Positions 12,075-22,859 of a DNA stretch of 32,938 bases are shown here, one piece after another (positions within the stretch are counted from its first letter, which is position 1; each line of letters begins with the position of its first letter). Source of the stretch: Nitrosomonas sp. (lineage in GTDB: Bacteria; Pseudomonadota; Gammaproteobacteria; Burkholderiales; Nitrosomonadaceae); NCBI GenBank assembly GCA_020890945.1, contig JAJHPK010000084.1, positions 1-32,938 of the forward strand, in the 5' to 3' direction. The translations under genes and the position numbers were made by a program. The notes under the pieces were generated by a model. The model did not search any database, was not told where the DNA came from, and worked only from the letters and a program-made list of their open reading frames with translations.

Positions 12075-12307
12075 AGTTTTACTGAATGGCAGCCGGGCAC
12101 AAGACAAACAGTATGAAACAGAGATTTAATTTTTGACCGGCACCAGATGTTTATGAGGGCCTTATGATACGCTAAAGTGAAATTATGTATCAACGAAATT
12201 TATGACTTCTGGATCCATTCAATGGATTTATAAATAATCAGCTTTTAGTCCATTATGATGAGCTTGCGCCTTGCGCAGCAAAGATGTTTGTTAAAAAGGA
12301 AGAAAAA

Positions 12308-13756
12308 ATGAAACTCGGACGAAACGATCCATGCGCTTGCGGCAGTGGAAAAAAATATAAGCAGTGCTGTTTGCGGACGCAAGAAACATCACTAACTGAA
12401 GATTTCTTGTGGCATCAAATACGCCAAGCAATTAAAGGGTTGCCTGAAAAATTACTGAAATTCTCGCAAAACCATTGGGGTTCGGACGCTTTATTGGAAG
12501 CATGGGGAGATTTCACGTTATGGAGCGAAGAGGATTTCTCTCCGGACACGCCGCACATGCAGTTATTTATGCCCTGGTTCTTTTTTAACTGGCACCCGGA
12601 TTATTCAATCCCCGATACCGGTAATCCACGCAAAAAAACAACCGGAGAAGCATTTTTCGATAAGCATGGCCAGCAACTTGATCCGCTCCTGAAACGCTAT
12701 ATTGAACAATGCTGCATAGCGCCATTTAGTTTTTTCGATATTGTATCGGTGCGCCCCGGCGATGGATTCGTGCTGCGTGACATTTTTACCGGTGAAGAAT
12801 GTTATGCCACCGAGCATTCCGCCTCGGTACACGCCACAGCCGGACAAATCGTATTTGGCAAGCTGGTCAAAATCGGCCATGTCGCGATATTGGAAGCCAG
12901 CGCCGCTTTCTTTATTCCACCCATCAAAAAATTTACCATTTTGGAGCTGCGCAAAGAATTATGCGCATTGGAGGATCCGCCATCGCACGATTTGCTCGGA
13001 AAATACGAACATGAAATGCTCGCAATTTATCAATTAATCTATGAACGGTTATTTAACCCGCCCATGCCGTCATTACGCAATACCGACGGCGATGCGATGA
13101 TATTTCAAAAGCTCGTCTATGATATTCAATCTCCGCAAGCCGCTTTTACCGCGCTGAAACAACTCTGTATCGACAGCACCGAAGACGAACTACTGCAAGA
13201 AGCTGAGTTTGACGCAGCAGGCGAACTACTTCGCATCGAATTTCCGTGGCTGAAGAAGGGCAATGCCAAGAACAAATCCTGGGACAACACTATACTGGGC
13301 AACATTAAAATCAAAGAACATCAGCTTACCGTCGAGGTTAATTCGGACAAACGGGCGCAACAATTTCAAAAACTGATCAAAAAATTACTACCGGAAGCGC
13401 ACTATAAAACCAGCGTGATTGAGTCGCCGCAGGCCATGCTGGCACAAATGCAGGGCGAGGGCGAAAGCGCGCAAGCGAAACAACGGCGGGAAGAGCGGGA
13501 AGAACTGAATAACCGCCCGGAAGTGCAGGAAAAAATTGCGGAATTCATGCGTGAACATTATCGCAAATGGCCCACAGAGAAACTCCCTGCCCTAGGCGGA
13601 AAAGCACCCTTGCAAGCCGTCAAAACCAAAGATGGCCGCGAAATGGTCGAAGCATTGCTGCGCGACTTTGAGCTAAGAAGCGCGAATTCCAATTTGCCGG
13701 TCGATCAATCCATCTTTGACGAACTGCGGGAGCGATTGGGATTAACCGGCCATTGA
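12308..13756 (+). CDS. SEC-C motif-containing protein
   Basis: The 482-residue protein opens with a SEC-C zinc motif, GRNDPCACGSGKKYKQCC (Cys9, Cys11, Cys20, Cys21), the same module as at the C terminus of SecA. The rest has no motif that I can name; it is rich in aromatic and acidic residues, with a segment near 330-380 (Lys-rich, then GEGESAQAKQRREER) that looks helical. I chose ATG 12308 because AAGGAAG (12296-12302) lies at the right distance; an ATG at 12284 in frame lacks this. The coding sequence is richer in G+C than the cas genes downstream (53% in a line counted by eye at 13201-13260). The last codons, GLTGH and stop, are made by the left arm of the palindromic element at 13742, so the original C terminus may have been changed. 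Role unknown. Confidence 0.8.
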   Translation: MKLGRNDPCACGSGKKYKQCCLRTQETSLTEDFLWHQIRQAIKGLPEKLLKFSQNHWGSDALLEAWGDFTLWSEEDFSPDTPHMQLFMPWFFFNWHPDYSIPDTGNPRKKTTGEAFFDKHGQQLDPLLKRYIEQCCIAPFSFFDIVSVRPGDGFVLRDIFTGEECYATEHSASVHATAGQIVFGKLVKIGHVAILEASAAFFIPPIKKFTILELRKELCALEDPPSHDLLGKYEHEMLAIYQLIYERLFNPPMPSLRNTDGDAMIFQKLVYDIQSPQAAFTALKQLCIDSTEDELLQEAEFDAAGELLRIEFPWLKKGNAKNKSWDNTILGNIKIKEHQLTVEVNSDKRAQQFQKLIKKLLPEAHYKTSVIESPQAMLAQMQGEGESAQAKQRREEREELNNRPEVQEKIAEFMREHYRKWPTEKLPALGGKAPLQAVKTKDGREMVEALLRDFELRSANSNLPVDQSIFDELRERLGLTGH

Positions 13757-13889: not shown

Positions 13890-13990
13890 CCGATTGATAT
13901 TCATACAAACTAATAAATAAATTCACAGACTCAGGTTTTGAGCCTGCGATCTTGGATAATGCCGGGGTGTATTTTTTAATGGGAGGCGTC

Positions 13991-14386
13991 ATGTCTCGAC
14001 GCGCATTCTTACAATCACTGACAGCACTGCTGAGTGGATTGGCGCTACCTGCAATTTCCCAGGCTAAACCAGAACGGATGCAATGGAAAACCTTGCAAAC
14101 TTCCCCCGTAGCCGGATTCCAATATCACCAAGGCGAAACACTCTGGCCGCAACTTGCCACCGGTCAACCGCTCACATTGGTGCGCGAACCCGGCAACCGT
14201 TTCGACCAACGCGCAGTACGTATCGACTGGCAAGGCGAAAAACTCGGCTACATCCCGGCGATTGATAACGCCGCAATCTCGCAACTGCTGGACCGCGGAG
14301 AAACGCTATCGGCCTCGATTGCGGGGCTGAAAAACAGTAAAAATCCTTGGGAACGGATTGAAGTGGAGGTGAGATGGAAGGTGTAA
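13991..14386 (+). CDS. HIRAN-domain protein with N-terminal export signal
   Basis: The 131-residue protein begins SRRAFLQSLTALLSGLALPAISQA, a Tat-like signal peptide (twin Arg at 3-4, hydrophobic core, cleavage near residue 25). The rest is a single HIRAN domain (about 38-130): SPVAGFQYHQGE, LTLVREPGNRFDQRAVRI and GEKLGYIPAIDNAAI are the family blocks. HIRAN domains in HLTF/Rad5 bind DNA ends, yet here the domain appears to be exported, which makes a nucleic-acid role uncertain. GGGAGG at 13981-13986 fixes the start at ATG 13991; an earlier in-frame ATG at 13952 is less likely. The gene lies 84 bp before cas1 on the same strand. Confidence 0.82.
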   Translation: MSRRAFLQSLTALLSGLALPAISQAKPERMQWKTLQTSPVAGFQYHQGETLWPQLATGQPLTLVREPGNRFDQRAVRIDWQGEKLGYIPAIDNAAISQLLDRGETLSASIAGLKNSKNPWERIEVEVRWKV

Positions 14387-14470: not shown

Positions 14471-15418
14471 ATGGAACAATTAACCGACTTAAAAGCAATT
14501 CTGCATTCCAAGCGTGCCAATATCTATTATCTGGAGAAATGCCGGGTCATGCAGAAAGATGGCCGAGTTCTCTATTTAACAGAAGCCAAAGACGAGCAGC
14601 TTTACTGGAATATTCCAATTGCCAATACCACGGTCATTTTATTAGGGACCGGAACCTCAATTACTCAAGCAGCCGTTCGCATGCTGGCATCGGCAGGCGT
14701 TTTGATTGGCTTCAGTGGTGGTGGCGGTACACCACTACTCATGGGAACTGAAATTGAATGGCTTACGCCCCAAAGTGAATACAGGCCAACCGAATACGTT
14801 CAGGGGTGGCTATCTTTCTGGTTCGAGGAAGGGAAACGCCTGAAAGTCGCCAAGCATTTTCAGCTTCTCCGCATCGATTTTCTAAGAGCCGTATGGAATA
14901 AAGATAAAGATCTGAAAAATGAAGGCTTCTTTTGGGATGACCAAGACGTTACGCAAGCATTCTCAGGCTTTTCGACTAAAGTAGAACAAGCAGTCAATGT
15001 GACCGAATTACTACTGATCGAAGCGCAACTCACCAAAAATCTTTACAGAATTGCCGTTGGCCGAACTCAGCAAAAAGACTTTGTGCGTAATTACGATAGT
15101 ACCGATAGCGCAAACGCTTTTCTAAATCATGGCAATTATTTGGCTTATGGCCTGGCAGCCAGCACGCTTTGGGTCCTCGGAATACCGCACGGTTTTGCTG
15201 TGATGCACGGAAAAACCCGCCGCGGGGCATTAGTGTTCGATGTCGCTGATCTGGTCAAAGACGCTATCGTATTACCGTGGGCATTCATTTGCGCTAAGGA
15301 AAAAATGAGTGAACAAGAATTCCGCCAGCAAATCCTGCAAAAATTTACCGAGCACAAAGCGCTGGATTATATGTTTGAGACTGTCAAACAAGCCAGTTTG
15401 CAAGGTGGCGAACTATGA
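14471..15418 (+). CDS. cas1: Type I-F CRISPR-associated endonuclease Cas1
   Basis: Cas1 is the integrase that inserts new spacers at the leader end of the array. The 315-residue protein is of the I-F type. Metal-binding catalytic residues are visible as Glu184 (LLLIEAQLTKN), His246 (VMHGKTRRGA) and Asp257/Asp260 (VFDVADLVKD); the His-to-Asp spacing of 11 and 14 equals that of Pseudomonas aeruginosa Cas1. The N-terminal beta domain (ILHSKRANIYYLE...) is complete. The stop overlaps the cas2/3 start (ATGA), showing translational coupling, and the two proteins form one integration complex in I-F systems. AAAGGA lies upstream of ATG 14471. The protein looks functional. Confidence 0.97.
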   Translation: MEQLTDLKAILHSKRANIYYLEKCRVMQKDGRVLYLTEAKDEQLYWNIPIANTTVILLGTGTSITQAAVRMLASAGVLIGFSGGGGTPLLMGTEIEWLTPQSEYRPTEYVQGWLSFWFEEGKRLKVAKHFQLLRIDFLRAVWNKDKDLKNEGFFWDDQDVTQAFSGFSTKVEQAVNVTELLLIEAQLTKNLYRIAVGRTQQKDFVRNYDSTDSANAFLNHGNYLAYGLAASTLWVLGIPHGFAVMHGKTRRGALVFDVADLVKDAIVLPWAFICAKEKMSEQEFRQQILQKFTEHKALDYMFETVKQASLQGGEL

Positions 15419-18342
15419 TGGTCACTTTTGTTTCCGAATGCGAGAAAAAAGCACTGAGCCGCACCCGGCGGGTATTGGATGCCTTCGCCAATCGCATCGG
15501 CAGCAATACCTGGCAAACGGTGATTACGGAAGAAGGATTGATTGCTGTTAAAACACTGCTGCGCAAAACCGCCACCAAAAATACTGCAGTTGCTTGTCAT
15601 TGGATACGCTCCAGAAGCCGAAGTGAGTTGGTTTGGATCGTAGGGAATCGAGATCGATTCAATTCTCAAGGCATCGTGCCAGTCAATTCCACAACAAAGG
15701 AACTCATAATGGACATACCCAAGCAAGCACCTAATCCCAATTTTCTCTACGCTAATACCCACCTACAGGGATTGGCGGAACATTTATTTGCCGTGGGTTA
15801 TGTTGCTGAGCAATTACTAGCACGTTTAACGCTGAACAAAACGAACGAAATGGAGATGATCTTTGTTGCTGGGTGCTTACACGATATAGGAAAAATTGAT
15901 CCGGCCTTTCAGGATTGGGTAAGGGACCCGAAGAAAAAGGCGCTTCAGGCGGAAGACGGTCAGCACATTGACGATACCAAATTCAGCTTCGATAAGCATC
16001 CGCGACATAACGAGATCTCTGTACTGCTTTATCAATTACTCGATCCCATCTCGTTCAAAGGTATCAGTACTGGTCACAAAAATGCAATCAAGCATACAAT
16101 TTATTGGCACCATGCAAAACCTTTCCGTAAGGAAAAAGACCCTGAATTTTCGACCTTTGGAGGGATTTACAAAAAGCTCAACGGCAATTTGTCCTCTCTA
16201 TCATTTTCGGAATTCATTGAAAAAGTGCAGCGACTGTTACAGCAAGTCAGTGACATCGATTGCAAATATCGGAACACTGAAGCATCGCTAATTAACAGGA
16301 TTTACAGTGAAACGGTAGATTTGGATTCATTGGATAACATCAAAACAACACCGTTACCCAGCTACAAAACGTATGAACCGGAAAATCGCATTGACGATTA
16401 TCGACAGCAAATTACCACCAATGCCCTACACAACGTGATACGCGCTTGTGTCATTTCTGCAGATCGATTGATCTCCGGATTATCCGTTGAAGATTTGCAT
16501 GGCCATGTCAGAGGCCAAACTTTGCACCGTTTGGTCGAAGAGACCTTGCTATCAGAAAGTAGTTTATGTTCGCAAATTCATTCCTGCATGACGCAATTTC
16601 CATCCAGCGAGCGCACGAGCAAACAGCATGAAATCGCCGTTCAGCTCAGCAAGATAAACGATGTTGCCGTACTGTCCGGCCCAGCCGGATGCGGTAAAAC
16701 CAAGATTGCATTAGAGTGGGCAATGTTAAAGAATGCCCAACAAATCATTTGGATTTGTCCGCGTGTACAAGTCTGCCAAGGTTTGTTTCTTGAGTTGACT
16801 TCCGGGCAATATTTGCCGGATACCAGCATCGAAATCAATACCGGCGAATTCAAATACACTAGAGAATGGGGAAAAGACACAGCGGAAGACGATTATTTTT
16901 CTGGCGATATCGTCATCACCACTATTGATCAAGTATTCAGCGCCATCATCACTCACACCAAGGTAAATACATTGATCAACGTCTTAAATGCTCATGTGGT
17001 ATTTGACGAATTCCACGAATATGTTGCCATGCCGGCGTTCAATCTGTTGTTTGCAGAACTGATCGAATGCAAAAAAATGCAGGGCAGCCTTGCCAATACC
17101 TTGCTGGTGTCCGCCACGCCACATTACTTCTTTCTGAATACCATCATGCAGATTCAACCGGAAGACATCATCGAAATGCCCAGTTTCAACCCAAGCGAGT
17201 ATCGCGTTGAATTCAAGGTATTCGATGAAGCGCGGCAAGACGAAGGCAATCCGTTGTATCAGCACCAGAGTGGTAAAACTATCGTAATTAGTAATACCGC
17301 CCAAACTGCGCAAAAAAGCTTTATCTGCAATCAAGATAGCGAGAACGCAATATTGTTGCATTCCAAGTTCAAGAAAAGCGATAGACACAAACTGTTCGAT
17401 GAAGTATACGAATCCTTCAAAAAAAACGGCACTCCAAAATACAATGTTTTACGGGCCGGGCCAATTGTGCAAGCATCATTAAATATCACCAGCGATTACA
17501 TGGTGTCTGAACTTACCACCGCTGAAAACTTTCTACAGCGTTTAGGTCGGCTTGATCGATTTGGTGTTAATTCGGCGACTAATATTTACTGTGTTGCCGT
17601 GCCGGAATTAATCCAGCAAGGCAAAGGCACCGGAGCAGCCGCCCGATTCCTTAACCGGCAATATTCCTTCTCCGCCACCAAGGCTTGGTATCGCTTTTTG
17701 CAATCTGAAGAAATTGAAAACCAAACAATCCAATTACCTAAGCTTTACTCGTTGTACCGTAAATTTCACGAAACAGCACTTGCCAAACAGGCAATGGAAT
17801 CGGATTTATTGGCTTGCTTCAAACAAGGGGTACAGTTGATTCAAAACAAAGTCGTCGATCCGATTACCATCCCACCGAAAAAAGCTACCGAAAAAGGCCG
17901 CGGCAAAATCAGCAAATATTCTTTACGCGGCGAGAACCGGTTTGTGCAAATGGCGGTATGCGAGGTCAGCCAATGGCCAAAAATCGAGTTCTTGAACGAA
18001 TACGCTTACCAACCTCCAGTGAACGAGCGCGAACAGTTCGATAATTTGACTGCATCGCTCGATGAAATTCAAGGATACGGCGATAGCGATAGAAACTTGT
18101 TGGCTTATATGAAAAGCAAACACCACAACATTATCGGTGGTCAAAAAGCTTTTAAAGATTTTATTTTGCTCAATGAAGCAAGAGACCCGGAATTTCCCGT
18201 TTATCTGAGCTATACCCCGGAAGGTCATGATCGGGTTGGCGGGGAAAGTTCTCGGCATAGTTATGCCGTTTACTATGCCGTATGTGATAAACAACCCATC
18301 GGTGCAATTTCAATCAAGCAATTAACAACTAACGAGGATTAA
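15415..18342 (+). CDS. cas3: Cas2/3 fusion: adaptation subunit plus HD nuclease-helicase
   Basis: The 975-residue protein is the I-F-specific fusion of Cas2 and Cas3. Residues 1-95 are the Cas2 domain ([42 protein letters not shown]). Next comes the HD nuclease with AEHLFAV (His123), CLHDIGK (His156, Asp157), HPRH (195-198) and WHHAK (His232, His233). The helicase has Walker [11 protein letters not shown] (421-430), motif II DEFH (531-534), motif III SATP (566-569) and the motif VI-like [10 protein letters not shown]. All nuclease and ATPase motifs are present. It is shorter than the roughly 1075 residues of the P. aeruginosa protein, as is usual in the I-Fv variant. It unwinds and cuts target DNA after Cascade binding and joins Cas1 for spacer insertion. 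Either Met of the initial MM may be used. Confidence 0.96.
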
Positions 18343-18344
18343 GC

Positions 18345-19319
18345 ATGCAAAAAATTACCGGGATTAAAAGCGTGGATTTTAAAGTGGTTGCTTATGGATA
18401 TGGAGTGGTTAACTGGAATGGTCCGACTACTTTGCAGAGCGATGGACGCATTATCGATAACCATTCGATGCCAAAATTACGCGGCTATACCAATTTAACC
18501 GGCAAGGAAAGCGATAAAGGCTATAAATTAAAAAAAGATCCATCGGAAATCGATTTTAAACAAACACCCATGTATATCAGTCAAAACTGTATCAGGCACC
18601 ATATGTTTAGAGACCAAGCCTATGATCTGCATTATGCAAAAGATAAAAACCTGCTTTCTGTGCTGACTTCGATTACCGGCTTGATTCGGGGTTACGTAGT
18701 TCCGGCAAGTCAATGTAAACGCACCAGTCCATTACTTCTGGAAGACTTTATCGATCAATTGGGTAATGGTAATTTCGAACAAATGGGACGTTCCGGCACT
18801 AAAGAGAAAGACAAAGATGATAAAGGCGACGATATAGCCAGCAACTCTTTTTTTTCTAAAACCACGTTTGGAGAAACCGAATATTTAGCTTATGGTTCAA
18901 TCAGTGTTGAGCAATTGCAATTCATTTCCCTGGATAAAAAATTTGATCGGGCTTCAATGGTTATCAAAGAGGGTGAAGGCGGGAAAATTGCTCAGGCTGT
19001 GCAAGATTTCATAAAATCAATTGATCCGAACCGTAATCCCAAAGCAGTGTTTCATCCTAACTACGTGCGTTCCGGCACGATATTTGAGGAAGGCGAAGTC
19101 GGTATTTTATTGGATAACGAAGCAACAGATATTCTCGTCAAAGAAACGTTGCGTATGATTGAAGAGCTGAGCATTCGTCAAGCCAAAGGCTATATGTATG
19201 TCGATAACTTGCTTGTCGATTACAACGATAGTAACAAAATGATGCGCATAAAGCGCAATTCAACCGAAATTAACGAAGAACCAAAATCACCTTATGCCAT
19301 TTATTTTTATGCCAAATAA
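18345..19319 (+). CDS. cas7fv: Type I-F2 (I-Fv) Cascade backbone protein Cas7fv
   Basis: The 324-residue protein matches the Cas7fv of the minimal I-Fv system: starts [13 protein letters not shown], then [69 protein letters not shown] and [26 protein letters not shown] near the end. In Shewanella putrefaciens CN-32 this subunit polymerises along the spacer part of the crRNA and replaces Csy3. A charged low-complexity insertion (about residues 149-168, rich in Lys, Asp and Glu) sits between GNGNFEQ and SFFSKTTFG. It starts two bases after the cas2/3 stop and ends in TAAGGAGGA, where its stop forms part of the cas5fv ribosome site. Confidence 0.95.
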
Positions 19320-19328
19320 GGAGGAATC

Positions 19329-20357
19329 ATGCGGATTACTATTAAATATGAAGCCTCTTGGCGAAATTCGTTTTTGGACGGTTCTAATAACGAACCATTG
19401 CCAAAAAGTGGTCGGGCATTTGTCGGTTCAATGACGACTCTGGGGAAACGCGATAGTCAAGGTAAGTATTCAAACTTTATCAAACGTGAAATTACGCATG
19501 ACACCGTCATGGGAGTACTGAATCGCCTTATTGGCGATCAAAGAAAGCTTTATCAATCTAGAAATTGCTCTGAATACTTCTTTTCAGGTTTGGAAGAATA
19601 TATATCTTTTAACGACCAGCAGAATCAAAGTGAGCCAATAAATACTGAAACAGTTTACATCCGGAATATGGAAGGAAATACCGATCAAAATTCATTCACG
19701 GGAATGATTAAAGTCAATGATCCAGTTTTTAGATCGGATTATTCAAACATTTTTTGGGGAGTTTTGCTCCTTGACATTGAAAGTCTTTGTCGTTTTATCG
19801 TGGATGAAAGCTTTCAAATACAACCATCAAAGCAATTTGATCCTTTAGATGTTTTACAAAAACTGGATGAATTAAACAAATTAAAGCCCATTGATATTGA
19901 AATGATAATAAATGCTCTGGATACACTGCAGAAATATTTTTCTGATGTAGCTTATAAAGTCATCGATAACAAAATAAAGCCTATCGAATTGTACTGTTCA
20001 GCATTGTATTTGCAGATCGGTCGTTTAAGTCATAAATATGATGTATCTCTCGCACTTACAAAAAATGGTGGTTTAGCGGGTATCTCAAAACGTGGTTATA
20101 CGCCAAAAGATTTCATGGATCGATACACCACGGGTAGTAAAAAACCAATATGGGGAAATCCATACCAACTAAAGGAAAAACGCAAAGGTGAAGGTGAGGT
20201 AGTTTCTCTGCTTACCAAGGCCAACGGTACGCTGGATATTCTTCTCAACATTCCCGACCACAAAGCTGAACAACTGAAAAGAATGATTGATGACGCCGGT
20301 GTTTCCAGTTTTTACCTAGGTAAAAAAGGCTTGGCCTATGTTGACGTAATTCGCTAA
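19329..20357 (+). CDS. cas5fv: Type I-F2 (I-Fv) Cascade subunit Cas5fv
   Basis: The 342-residue protein resembles Cas5fv: YEASWRNSFLDGSNNEPLPKSGR at the start, TVMGVLNRLIGDQRKLYQ, then GISKRGYTPKDFMDRYTTGSKKPIWGNP and the end VSSFYLGKKGLAYVDVIR. In the S. putrefaciens complex it caps the crRNA 5' handle and carries a helical insertion that reads the PAM and takes over the role of the missing large subunit Cas8f. Here the predicted helical region is about residues 140-245. That part is much poorer in G+C (28% in two 60-base lines counted, 19861-19980) than the flanks. A strong Shine-Dalgarno AAGGAGGA precedes ATG 19329. Confidence 0.94.
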   Translation: MRITIKYEASWRNSFLDGSNNEPLPKSGRAFVGSMTTLGKRDSQGKYSNFIKREITHDTVMGVLNRLIGDQRKLYQSRNCSEYFFSGLEEYISFNDQQNQSEPINTETVYIRNMEGNTDQNSFTGMIKVNDPVFRSDYSNIFWGVLLLDIESLCRFIVDESFQIQPSKQFDPLDVLQKLDELNKLKPIDIEMIINALDTLQKYFSDVAYKVIDNKIKPIELYCSALYLQIGRLSHKYDVSLALTKNGGLAGISKRGYTPKDFMDRYTTGSKKPIWGNPYQLKEKRKGEGEVVSLLTKANGTLDILLNIPDHKAEQLKRMIDDAGVSSFYLGKKGLAYVDVIR

Positions 20358-20369
20358 CCGGGAGATACC

Positions 20370-21014
20370 ATGAACTACTACCTTGAAATTACCTTATTAC
20401 CGAATTATGAAATCAATCTTTTCAGCCTCTGGTCCAAAACCTTCCAACAAATACATCTCGGTTTGGTTGAAATGCAAGATAAGCATAAGCAGGTACCGAT
20501 TGGCGTATCGTTTCCCGAGTACAAAATGGGTGAAAAATTCGGCATATTGGGTAGCAAGCTGCGGGTTTTTGCTCCAGACGAAGCCACTTTGAAAGCGTTT
20601 GATACTGGCAAATGGTTAGCTCGTTTGAACGATTATGTGCATTACACCACTATCCGCCCGGTACCGAGTGCGATAAACAGTTATGCTATCTACCAGCGCG
20701 AACAGCCTAAAACAGGCAGAGAGCGTTTAGCTAGGCGTTACGCGAAACGGCATAATTTGGATTACGAAACTGCATTGAATGGAAGAGTGGAATTAAGCGC
20801 GAAGGCTGAGGAAGGAGGAAGATGCGAAAAAGTAATGATGAGCTATAGCGAAATGCCCAATAAAGCTATCGCCACACCCTTTATTCGGCTAAAAAGTTTA
20901 AGCAGTGACCATACGTTCTGCCTGTGGATCAAAAAAAGGGAAATAGAAACCAACGTTAACGGAACTTTCACTACCTACGGTTTAAGTTCTGCTGCTTCCG
21001 TCCCAGAATTCTGA
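20370..21014 (+). CDS. cas6f: CRISPR repeat endoribonuclease Cas6f (Csy4)
   Basis: The 214-residue protein cuts the repeat RNA at the base of its hairpin and stays bound to the crRNA 3' end. Catalytic His29 (QQIHLGL) is at exactly the position of His29 in P. aeruginosa Csy4. The Arg-rich helix that binds the stem is RERLARRYAKRH (117-128). The Ser pair of the active site is likely Ser176/Ser178 (LKSLS). The C-terminal block TFTTYGLSSAASVPEF matches the family end YGLSxxxxVPxF. GGGAG upstream fixes ATG 20370, 12 bp after cas5fv. It is the last cas gene, 132 bp before the first repeat. Confidence 0.97.
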   Translation: MNYYLEITLLPNYEINLFSLWSKTFQQIHLGLVEMQDKHKQVPIGVSFPEYKMGEKFGILGSKLRVFAPDEATLKAFDTGKWLARLNDYVHYTTIRPVPSAINSYAIYQREQPKTGRERLARRYAKRHNLDYETALNGRVELSAKAEEGGRCEKVMMSYSEMPNKAIATPFIRLKSLSSDHTFCLWIKKREIETNVNGTFTTYGLSSAASVPEF

Positions 21015-21048
21015 CCCATTTTTTTAACGATCTTTAACAATTCATAAA

Positions 21049-21061
21049 AATCAGCCAGTTG
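21049..21061 (+). promoter_or_regulatory. Candidate IHF binding site in the CRISPR leader
   Basis: AATCAGCCAGTTG fits the consensus WATCARNNNNTTR at every fixed position, and an A-rich run precedes it. IHF bends the leader for Cas1-Cas2/3 integration in type I-F systems studied in Pectobacterium. The site starts 98 bp before the first repeat. Confidence 0.55.
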
Positions 21062-21127
21062 TGATGTAGGTGTTGGTGAGATGGTGATTCATTCATAAAC
21101 ATCCTGTACACTCCACCACGACTGGCT
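21053..21127. repeat. Leader inverted repeat overlapping the IHF-like site
   Basis: AGCCAGTTGTG (21053-21063) and CACGACTGGCT (21117-21127) are inverted copies with 10 of 11 positions matching, 53 bp apart. The left arm lies inside the IHF-like site; the right arm ends 19 bp before the first repeat. Confidence 0.6.
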
Positions 21128-21146
21128 TTAAGTATTTTTATCGTCA

Positions 21147-22859
21147 GTTCGCTGCCGCACAGGCAGCTTAGAAATGGAAGCTCTTCTTTAGTTAAGTAAT
21201 CGATGTGTTCGCTGCCGCACAGGCAGCTTAGAAAAGCGTCGTTCACTTTCAGCCGGCGACGATCGAGTTCGCTGCCGCACAGGCAGCTTAGAAAAATAAC
21301 AGCCCACGCGAAATGAAATTATGGCGGTTCGCTGCCGCACAGGCAGCTTAGAAACATGAGGTTTCAGAGATTTTTATTGCCTATGCAGTTCGCTGCCGCA
21401 CAGGCAGCTTAGAAATTTTTTCTTAACGCAAACGGATAATCTCCGGAGTTCGCTGCCGCACAGGCAGCTTAGAAATTGTAGTAATTTTTTTGTGTTAGTT
21501 TTCATATGTTCGCTGCCGCACAGGCAGCTTAGAAAATCAGGGAAATTCCATTTAAAACTTGCTTGAGGTTCGCTGCCGCACAGGCAGCTTAGAAATTGTG
21601 AAGAACCAGTTCCAGTTGATCCAGTGCGTTCGCTGCCGCACAGGCAGCTTAGAAATAACAATACTTACATTTAATCCATTCGATTTAGTTCGCTGCCGCA
21701 CAGGCAGCTTAGAAATGTACCTGTCCAAGCGGTTATCTGTACTCTGAGTTCGCTGCCGCACAGGCAGCTTAGAAAGATTAATCAATTTATTCTGTAAACC
21801 GGCAAAGGTTCGCTGCCGCACAGGCAGCTTAGAAATATTTAGGGGGGTAAAATGAGCACTCCTAGAGGTTCGCTGCCGCACAGGCAGCTTAGAAAACTCA
21901 CGCGCATAAATACGTAACTAATCGTGCGTTCGCTGCCGCACAGGCAGCTTAGAAAATACACCGCTACCACTTCCCAATTTATACTCAGTTCGCTGCCGCA
22001 CAGGCAGCTTAGAAATTCTCACGCACTGTTTAAAACACTCTCACGAAGTTCGCTGCCGCACAGGCAGCTTAGAAATTCAGATATGTGACCAATCCAATCG
22101 ATAAGTAGTTCGCTGCCGCACAGGCAGCTTAGAAAAATCCCAGCTGTTGATAATTGCTCTTTAATAAGTTCGCTGCCGCACAGGCAGCTTAGAAATTCTT
22201 GTTGAATTGTACTATACGCTTTACCGAGTTCGCTGCCGCACAGGCAGCTTAGAAAATTTTAAGTTTTCCTTATAAAGTTTGCGTTTCGTTCGCTGCCGCA
22301 CAGGCAGCTTAGAAAATCGTCACTAAGAACTCTTAACATTTCGGTTAGTTCGCTGCCGCACAGGCAGCTTAGAAAGTGTTAAACCGATAAATGCAGATTT
22401 TTTGAGCGTTCGCTGCCGCACAGGCACAGCTTAGAAATTCCGGGTTAAGACGCTCTGTTAGCATAGCTAGTTCGCTGCCGCACAGGCAGCTTAGAAATTT
22501 TCAAAATTGATTTAAGATAATCTTAATTTGTTCGCTGCCGCACAGGCAGCTTAGAAAGTCACTATTCATCATCTTTTTAAGGGTGTCGTAGTTCGCTGCC
22601 GCACAGGCAGCTTAGAAATAATTTTTTACGCATACGCGGCGCAGTTGCTAGTTCGCTGCCGCACAGGCAGCTTAGAAATATTCATGCGGGTTTGCGCTTA
22701 GATACCCGAAGTTCGCTGCCGCACAGGCAGCTTAGAAAATCGTGCAAAACACTTCTATAGCGGCTTGCGGTGTTCGCTGCCGCACAGGCAGCTTAGAAAA
22801 ATACTAGATTCAAACAGGTATTAGACAGCGTGTTCGCTGCCGCACAGGTAGCTTAGAAA
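21147..22859 (+). CRISPR. Type I-F CRISPR array, 29 repeats and 28 spacers
   Basis: The 28-bp repeat begins GTTCGCTGCC and ends AGCTTAGAAA. It contains the I-F hairpin CTGCC-GCACA-GGCAG (5-bp stem, 5-nt loop), so Cas6f cleavage gives the 5' handle CTTAGAAA. Repeats start at 21147 and then every 60-61 bp (62 after the odd one); spacers are 32 bp, with 33 bp at spacers 4, 24 and 27. All copies are identical by eye except repeat 22 (22408-22437, 30 bp, extra CA in the 3' half of the stem) and repeat 29 (22832-22859, C to T in the stem). The terminal variant marks the leader-distal end, so transcription runs on the plus strand from the leader at 21015-21146. No spacer was seen to match elsewhere in this window. 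Confidence 0.99.

Follow-up and report, generated by a model that had tools for sequence, protein, structure and literature searches.

The window analysed here, a stretch of 32,938 nucleotides (nt) of Nitrosomonas sp. DNA, is the whole of contig C92 in a 2.68 Mb genome (106 contigs, 99.95% complete) and contains a clustered regularly interspaced short palindromic repeats (CRISPR) locus with CRISPR-associated (cas) genes. Five cas genes, all on the + strand and all with open frames, lie in the order cas1 (14471..15418), cas2/3 (15415..18342), cas7fv (18345..19319), cas5fv (19329..20357) and cas6f (20370..21014), followed on the same strand by an array of 29 repeats and 28 spacers (21147..22859). 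The genes cas1, cas2/3, cas7fv, cas5fv and cas6f are assigned to a spacer-integrating Cas1 of the I-F type, a fusion of a Cas2 domain with an HD nuclease and a helicase, the backbone of the CRISPR-associated complex for antiviral defence (Cascade), the subunit that binds the 5' tag of the CRISPR RNA (crRNA) and reads the protospacer-adjacent motif (PAM), and the repeat endoribonuclease Cas6f (Csy4), respectively. The locus is interpreted, with a probability of about 0.93, as a complete type I-F2 (I-Fv) CRISPR-Cas system, an interpretation that includes its chromosomal setting (referred to below as the dock) and the exchange of the Cas5fv helical domain among its relatives.

Cas1 scored 603.7 bits with the PADLOC model Cas1fv and 465 with Cas1f, and matched a solved I-F Cas1 at E 3.2e-109. 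Cas2/3 matched PADLOC Cas3fv at 1498.5 bits and the solved chain 9g44_A at 1075.6 bits; its Pfam domains are PF21384 (the Cas2 domain of I-F Cas3) at residues 1-79, Cas3_HD and helicase domains, and its score with the NCBIfam model of I-F Cas3, TIGR02562, was 150, below the cut-off of 566. Cas7fv scored 481.5 bits with NF040577 (cut-off 200) and 579.4 with PADLOC Cas7fv, and matched 5o6u_C at E 1.1e-149. Cas5fv scored 478.9 bits with PADLOC Cas5fv and 248 with Cas5f, a large margin, and matched 5o6u_F at E 1.7e-112; no NCBIfam family matched it at 0.001. Its helical domain (aa 117-272; 19677..20144, + strand) was recognised by PF20158 at 227.2 bits and is the part that is replaced between conserved flanks in some relatives. 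Cas6f was identified by PF09618 (175.8 bits), PADLOC Cas6f (198.7) and its alignment with solved Csy4. Cas7, Cas5 and Cas3 have their closest solved structures in entries of I-Fv/I-F2 complexes, the Shewanella putrefaciens I-Fv Cascade chains for the first two and 9g44_A for the third, whereas those for the other two proteins are I-F Cas1 and Csy4 chains. The best PADLOC E-values range from 2.5e-59 (Cas6f) to 0 (Cas3fv), and chance is therefore excluded.

The letters GCLHDIGK and GPAGCGKT in Cas3 are taken by us to be the HD motif and Walker A, respectively, and DEFH is also present. Histidine 29 of Cas6f aligns with the histidine of solved Csy4. A reading of the DNA made from its letters (the sequence-only reading) had called the motifs for adaptation, crRNA processing and interference intact, which the open frames, domains and conserved motifs bear out at the level of sequence. 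The last two thirds of cas6f (20550-21011) are 66-77% nt-identical to those of three relatives (L018, L019 and L032), compared with mostly 78-97% for the upstream genes, and over the last third the identity between L018 and L032 is 95%; because of these two observations cas6f may also be mosaic. A promoter and terminator scan returned fewer sites than in shuffled sequences and was not used.

The repeat matches Rfam CRISPR-DR4, in 28 copies, and forms a hairpin of -12.3 kcal/mol (z -3.1). Twenty-seven of the 29 repeats are identical 28-mers. The claim of a long, near-uniform array holds for these and fails for two: a 30-nt copy with a 2-nt insertion, read by eye at 22408..22437 (+ strand), and the last copy, which has one substitution. 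Spacers are of 32 nt (25/28) or 33 nt (3/28). The segment between cas6f and the first repeat (21015..21146, + strand) is a probable leader by its position alone, with the substituted repeat at the opposite end. When the repeat pattern was searched over the whole genome with up to three mismatches, this array alone was matched, and a reversed control pattern matched nothing. No other locus compared contains a full-length match to any of the 28 window spacers, which fits recent or independent acquisition; across all the arrays compared, spacers of different loci had short matches but none of full length, and duplicates or near-duplicates were seen within single arrays.

The assignment to I-F2 follows from the PADLOC results, in which I-Fv models were the best for Cas1, Cas3, Cas7 and Cas5 (and Cas6f for the fifth protein), from the NF040577 score above its cut-off, and from PF20158 and PF21384. 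The locus combines Cas7fv and Cas5fv effectors, the Cas5fv helical domain, a Cas2-Cas3 fusion, an I-F Cas1, Cas6f and a 28-nt hairpin repeat, and Csy1 is absent. Type I-F1 is defined by the effectors csy1, csy2 and csy3; here csy1 (Cas8f, PF09611) was not found in any of the nine genus genomes with Cas5fv, that of the window among them, with a positive E. coli control, csy2 and csy3 not being part of the genome-wide search, and the best Cas5 and Cas7 models are of the I-Fv type. Type I-F3 is marked by tniQ/Tn7 genes and lacks cas1 or cas2/3, both of which are present here. The sequence-only reading had named a complete minimal I-F2 locus with this gene order in a Nitrosomonas-type bacterium, and this was confirmed by the coordinates, PADLOC, Pfam and the array, as well as by the host, which is Nitrosomonas. 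It had also expected no csy1, in agreement with the PF09611 result, and Cas7 and Cas5 matching best outside I-F1 and I-F3, as they do with both models and structures. The replacement of the large subunit by Cas5fv, which that reading cited for S. putrefaciens, is upheld here by the PF20158 match together with the lack of Csy1 in the genome.

In the proposed mechanism, Cas1 and the Cas2 domain of Cas2/3 would insert new 32-nt spacers beside the cas6f-proximal leader, and Cas6f would cleave each repeat after the hairpin, releasing crRNAs about 60 nt long that bear the 8-nt tag CUUAGAAA. The spacer would be coated by Cas7fv and the tag held by Cas5fv, the helical domain of which would read the PAM in place of Cas8f, and the recruitment of Cas2/3 would lead to degradation of the DNA. 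Gene content, protein families, repeat, conserved motifs and the lack of Csy1 in the genome are directly supported. A GG PAM, crRNA processing and interference are predicted by analogy with the S. putrefaciens system, because no protospacer was found in a small search.

Cas5fv was detected in 9 of 125 family genomes, all belonging to the genus of the window. Csy1 occurs in 13 of the 85 genus genomes and in none of the nine with Cas5fv. At E <= 0.001, Cas5fv was found in 5/399 order genomes and 5/369 class genomes, counts that take in partial and weak matches and include the window genome in each case. A scan of close relatives gave 22 loci (L018-L039), from Nitrosomonas (6), Nitrotoga (3) and methanotrophs (13), with the same architecture as the window and Cas7fv 75-96% identical to its own; the five genes were present in the same order, whole or in part, in 21 of the 22, and L034 is cut at its left end. 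No Cas5fv was found among phage records. It was found on four plasmid records, three of Acinetobacter (NZ_CP046295.1, NZ_CP156788.1, NZ_CP156769.1) and one of Legionella (NZ_CP045304.1), all mobilizable or conjugative plasmids carrying an I-F2 cas5fv.

Some of the loci in L018-L039 carry ParD/zeta-like or PIN genes inside the locus. A pair encoding a ParD-like antitoxin and a zeta-toxin-like protein lies 3' of cas6f in L018 (8797-9797; Pfam tested for this locus only) and occurs by similarity in L025, L032, L038, L135 and L138; none was seen in the window. PIN-domain toxin-like genes lie between the cas genes of methanotroph I-F2 loci (L022:5364-5765 and L026:6574-6972) and, by sequence, also in L024 and L029. 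An I-F2 remnant in genus genome G075 (L052) has an interrupted cas5fv frame with cas7fv and cas6f present, and cas1 and cas2/3 were not recognised within 15 kb; the same genome holds a type I-E operon in its dock (L131).

The Cas5fv helical domain appears to behave as an exchangeable cassette in the close relatives of the window system, to judge from sequence comparisons. In two Nitrosomonas lineages, the helical domain is 45-50% identical at the protein level between flanks that are 92-95% identical. Nitrosomonas SJ634 (L032) and L019 share 86-97% nt identity by segment from cas2/3 to the end of cas5fv, except at Cas5fv residues 111-270, where it falls to 55-57%; in fine windows the two edges of the drop fall around residues 121-134 and 254-267, near the boundaries of the helical domain. 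Third-position agreement at unchanged amino acids between the same two loci is 91/108 in the N-terminal flank, 33/71 in the helical domain and 51/65 in the C-terminal flank. The 28 Cas5fv proteins compared form 378 pairs, and flank identity reaches 88% or more in 22 of them; helical identity is 79-94% in 18 of these and 45-50% in the other four, three of which involve L032 and one L023/L051. In the trees, which left out L052 (broken cas5fv) and L056 (29% identical), the branch of L032 has a length of 1.96 for the helical domain and 0.026 for the flanks. The flanks of L051 (genus genome G013) group with L023, whereas its helical domain groups with L036-L038. The helical type of the window is common to L018 (Nitrosomonas Nm132) and L019, and those of L032, L034 and L051 differ from it.

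A longer segment is involved in N. oligotropha Nm45 (L034), which resembles Methylomonas SURF-1 (L035) from cas7fv to Cas5fv residue 270 and the window before and after this segment; over cas7fv residues 191-324 it is about equally close to both. The exchanged segments lie between conserved flanks at L032:5572-6615, in L051 (helical domain) and at L034:2595-3608 (cas7fv-cas5fv). This pattern indicates that the helical domain, and in one relative a cas7fv-cas5fv segment, was probably exchanged by recombination among related systems. Structure models of Cas5fv were poor (mean predicted local distance difference test 69 for the window and 62 for L032), with 5o6u and 9g44 as the sole matches at E <= 0.001 (TM-scores 0.35-0.41), and neither models nor matches were used for the argument. 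The structure alignments left out L028, L039 and L051-L057.

In S. putrefaciens Cas5fv, residue Q113 distorts the first PAM pair, and a PAM-related lysine and aspartate are named, without residue numbers in the available text (PMC6546366). Q120 of the window Cas5fv corresponds to Q113, its position being counted from the structure alignment. This glutamine is kept in 26 of the 28 Cas5fv proteins, and L034 and L035 have proline in its place. Towards the end of the domain, a KD pair assigned in this analysis is kept in 27/28, and L032 has RD after a one-residue insertion. Since the glutamine that distorts the PAM is missing from L034 and L035, and the KD helix is altered in L032, the PAM rules of these three may differ. 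We tentatively suggest, at somewhat less than even odds, that the I-F2 helical domain is a swappable target-recognition cassette and that phage pressure, through anti-CRISPRs that block PAM binding or through PAM escape, selects recombinants in which this domain alone, or the cas7fv-cas5fv segment, has been replaced. If so, neighbouring Nitrosomonas would carry Cascades with a closely similar adaptation module, nuclease and repeat and with different PAM-reading surfaces. The comparison also supplies naturally occurring Cas5fv proteins whose differences fall chiefly in the PAM-reading domain, through which the roles of that domain in PAM choice and anti-CRISPR resistance could be examined directly.

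The dock to the left of cas1 is marked by a gene for a HIRAN-domain protein (13991..14386, + strand; PF08797, 55.1 bits; 13985-14383 used in searches), 84 nt upstream of cas1. Its left flank is a gene for a SEC-C motif protein (12284..13756, + strand; PF02810, 34.7 bits), which in several relatives lies ahead of cas operons belonging to other subtypes. The order in the window dock is miaB, o11706, a SEC-C and/or WYL gene, and the HIRAN gene. A HIRAN homologue or remnant is present in 22 of the 85 genus genomes, and 20 regions were fetched for comparison with the window and L018. A cas operon follows in 21 of the 22, L142 having none, and the distance from the end of the HIRAN match to the start of the first cas frame ranges from -36 to 718 nt; in the locus with the 718-nt gap (L126) an unassigned frame lies between the two. 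Subtypes, determined by PADLOC on representatives and by similarity for the rest, are I-C in ten loci (L125, L126, L127, L130, L132, L133, L134, L139, L141 and L144), I-E in three (L131, L137 and L140), I-F1 in four (L128, L135, L136 and L138) and I-F2 in four (the window, L018, L129 and L143, the last two typed by a partial cas2/3 at contig ends). One and the same site on the chromosome has been occupied by three subtypes, since miaB and/or o11706 lies to the left of the dock in I-F2 (window and L129), I-C (L126, L130 and L144) and I-E (L131 and L137) loci. The I-F1 dock loci share SEC-C or WYL genes and HIRAN, and miaB was not seen in their fetched stretches. Within this single genus the HIRAN-marked setting holds four CRISPR subtypes, of which three or more occupy the same miaB-linked site.

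The HIRAN gene is not strictly conserved, because its frame is intact and near full length in only 9 of the 22 genus genomes and it lies next to an I-F operon in only 4 of the 13 genomes with Csy1 and 3 of the 9 with Cas5fv. HIRAN matches were found in 129 of 398 order genomes, the genus included; as a general CRISPR marker it was rejected, 22 of the 27 best-scoring loci fetched from outside the genus having no dock-like cas gene within about 1.5 kb. A gene for 5-formyltetrahydrofolate cyclo-ligase was considered as a shared right flank and rejected, being far from the dock in the single-contig genomes G035 and G050. A gene for a WYL-domain regulator often lies 5' of HIRAN and the cas operon in L125-L144 (Pfam tested for L125), and a WYL-type gene, by sequence, is also found upstream of cas1 in L023 and L025. 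Six I-C loci of the dock (L125-L127, L130, L139 and L144) have a nucleotidyltransferase gene between cas7 and cas4, and L126, L127 and L130 have an additional HEPN gene there; these calls were made by clustering with Pfam-tested members.

Several observations weigh against the interpretation of the locus as a complete, working I-F2 system, and they bear on two alternatives. The margin for Cas7 is small, about 15 bits between Cas7fv (579.4) and the 'Cas7f' model (564.0). Cas1 (87-91% identical) and the Cas2 domain are near those of the I-F1 loci of the genus, which would suit a locus of type I-F1, or of the transposon type I-F3, whose large subunit has diverged. That alternative has almost no probability in view of the Cas5fv margin over Cas5f (478.9 to 248 bits), the helical domain, the lack of Csy1, the presence of cas1 and cas2/3, and the lack of transposition genes among the 14 non-cas proteins tested, where an IstB-like ATPase match fell inside PhoH only; no I-F3-labelled model appeared in the profile match lists for Cas7 and Cas5. 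The remaining observations concern the predicted activity. The 2 nt inserted in one repeat weaken its hairpin (-6.9 vs -12.3 kcal/mol). Three of the 28 window spacers and one of the 31 spacers of L032 gave no match to viral contigs (patterns of the first 23 nt with every sixth base free), and two of the same window spacers, at full length with up to three mismatches, matched only the array itself in the 85 genus genomes; these were six single-spacer searches with four different spacers, the other 25 window spacers not being searched outside. With the substituted repeat and the broken sister locus L052, they would suit a complete-looking system that is silent or decaying. This is quite improbable, as the five cas frames are all open, 27 of the 29 repeats are identical, and the lack of full-length spacer matches in the compared loci fits recent or independent acquisition.

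The two wider parts of the interpretation have alternatives of their own. The helical domain might not have been imported; strong selection, such as that exerted by anti-CRISPR proteins, could have driven its divergence in place. Comparison of the 28 proteins revealed no donor lineage for the L032 domain, agreement at third positions is also uneven in pairs whose identity does not drop (L018/L019: N 86/104, helical 122/141, C 39/65, a different pattern), and the approximately unbiased (AU) test on the helical tree did not reject the grouping of L032 with the window, L018 and L019 (p 0.236), so that replacement in L032 is argued from codon positions and sharp edges and not from topology. Third-position agreement is nevertheless lower in the domain than in the flanks, at 33/71 against 142/173 for L019/L032 (Fisher p 6e-8) and 47/80 against 132/170 for L023/L051 (p 0.003). 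Such divergence at unchanged amino acids would not be caused by selection at the protein level alone, and the helical data reject the grouping of L023 with L051 (p 8e-61), although the reverse test on the flanks did not significantly reject the alternative (p 0.176). In-place divergence is distinctly unlikely, and exchange by recombination is preferred. As for the dock, the HIRAN gene might be a working CRISPR part, a DNA-end-binding or sensing accessory, in place of a mere flank, given that operons of four subtypes follow the gene or its remnant in 21 of 22 genus genomes and that 5 of the 27 top-scoring loci fetched outside the genus have I-C genes next to it. The interrupted or partial frames in 13 of 22 genus genomes, its scarcity beside I-F operons and the absence of dock-like cas genes from most outside loci make this unlikely. 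The N-terminus of the protein (SRRAFLQ), which we take to be a twin-arginine translocation (Tat)-like signal predicting export, also argues against it.

The locus itself is an ordinary complete I-F2 system of a kind already known; what deserves further attention is the dock and the exchange of the helical domain in Cas5fv. Among the titles and abstract openings listed in literature searches, none dealt with I-F2 in Nitrosomonas, with exchange of a domain in Cas5fv or with a CRISPR site marked by HIRAN, which is weak evidence of novelty because the listings covered only part of the matching papers. As a well-preserved betaproteobacterial I-F2 system, the locus is useful as a compact DNA-targeting Cascade. 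The sequence-only reading had presented it as an independent betaproteobacterial case; it is betaproteobacterial, and a homologous member rather than an independent origin, because Oligella and Oxalobacter are among the nine beta- and gammaproteobacteria listed with I-F2 in 2015, a set that does not include Nitrosomonas in the text available (PMC4605320). An I-Fv system on an island is described for V. cholerae in the accessible part of PMC6360697.

The system of S. putrefaciens CN-32 (5o6u, 5o7h and 9g44) and that of the window have the same five genes, the Cas2/3 fusion, the hairpin repeat, the Cas5fv helical domain and the PAM glutamine, and both lack Csy1, Csy2 and Csy3. They differ in chromosomal setting and in array length (28 spacers in the window, 81 in CN-32). 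The description and testing of I-F2 come from S. putrefaciens, where the PAM is GG and a flanking DinG gene is present and dispensable, according to the available portions of PMC4605320 and PMC12714560, whereas no DinG-family gene is among the 14 tested neighbours in the window. The I-F1 loci of Nitrosomonas (L128, L135, L136 and L138) have a HIRAN-marked dock like that of the window and a closely similar Cas1, and unlike the window they carry all three csy genes, csy1 included. When their Cas2/3 proteins are aligned with that of the window, residues 1-94 show 81-86 identities in 93 aligned positions; past residue 94 the similarity collapses to short weak local matches, and the same Cas2/3 breakpoint is reported between S. 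putrefaciens strains in the accessible text of PMC4605320.

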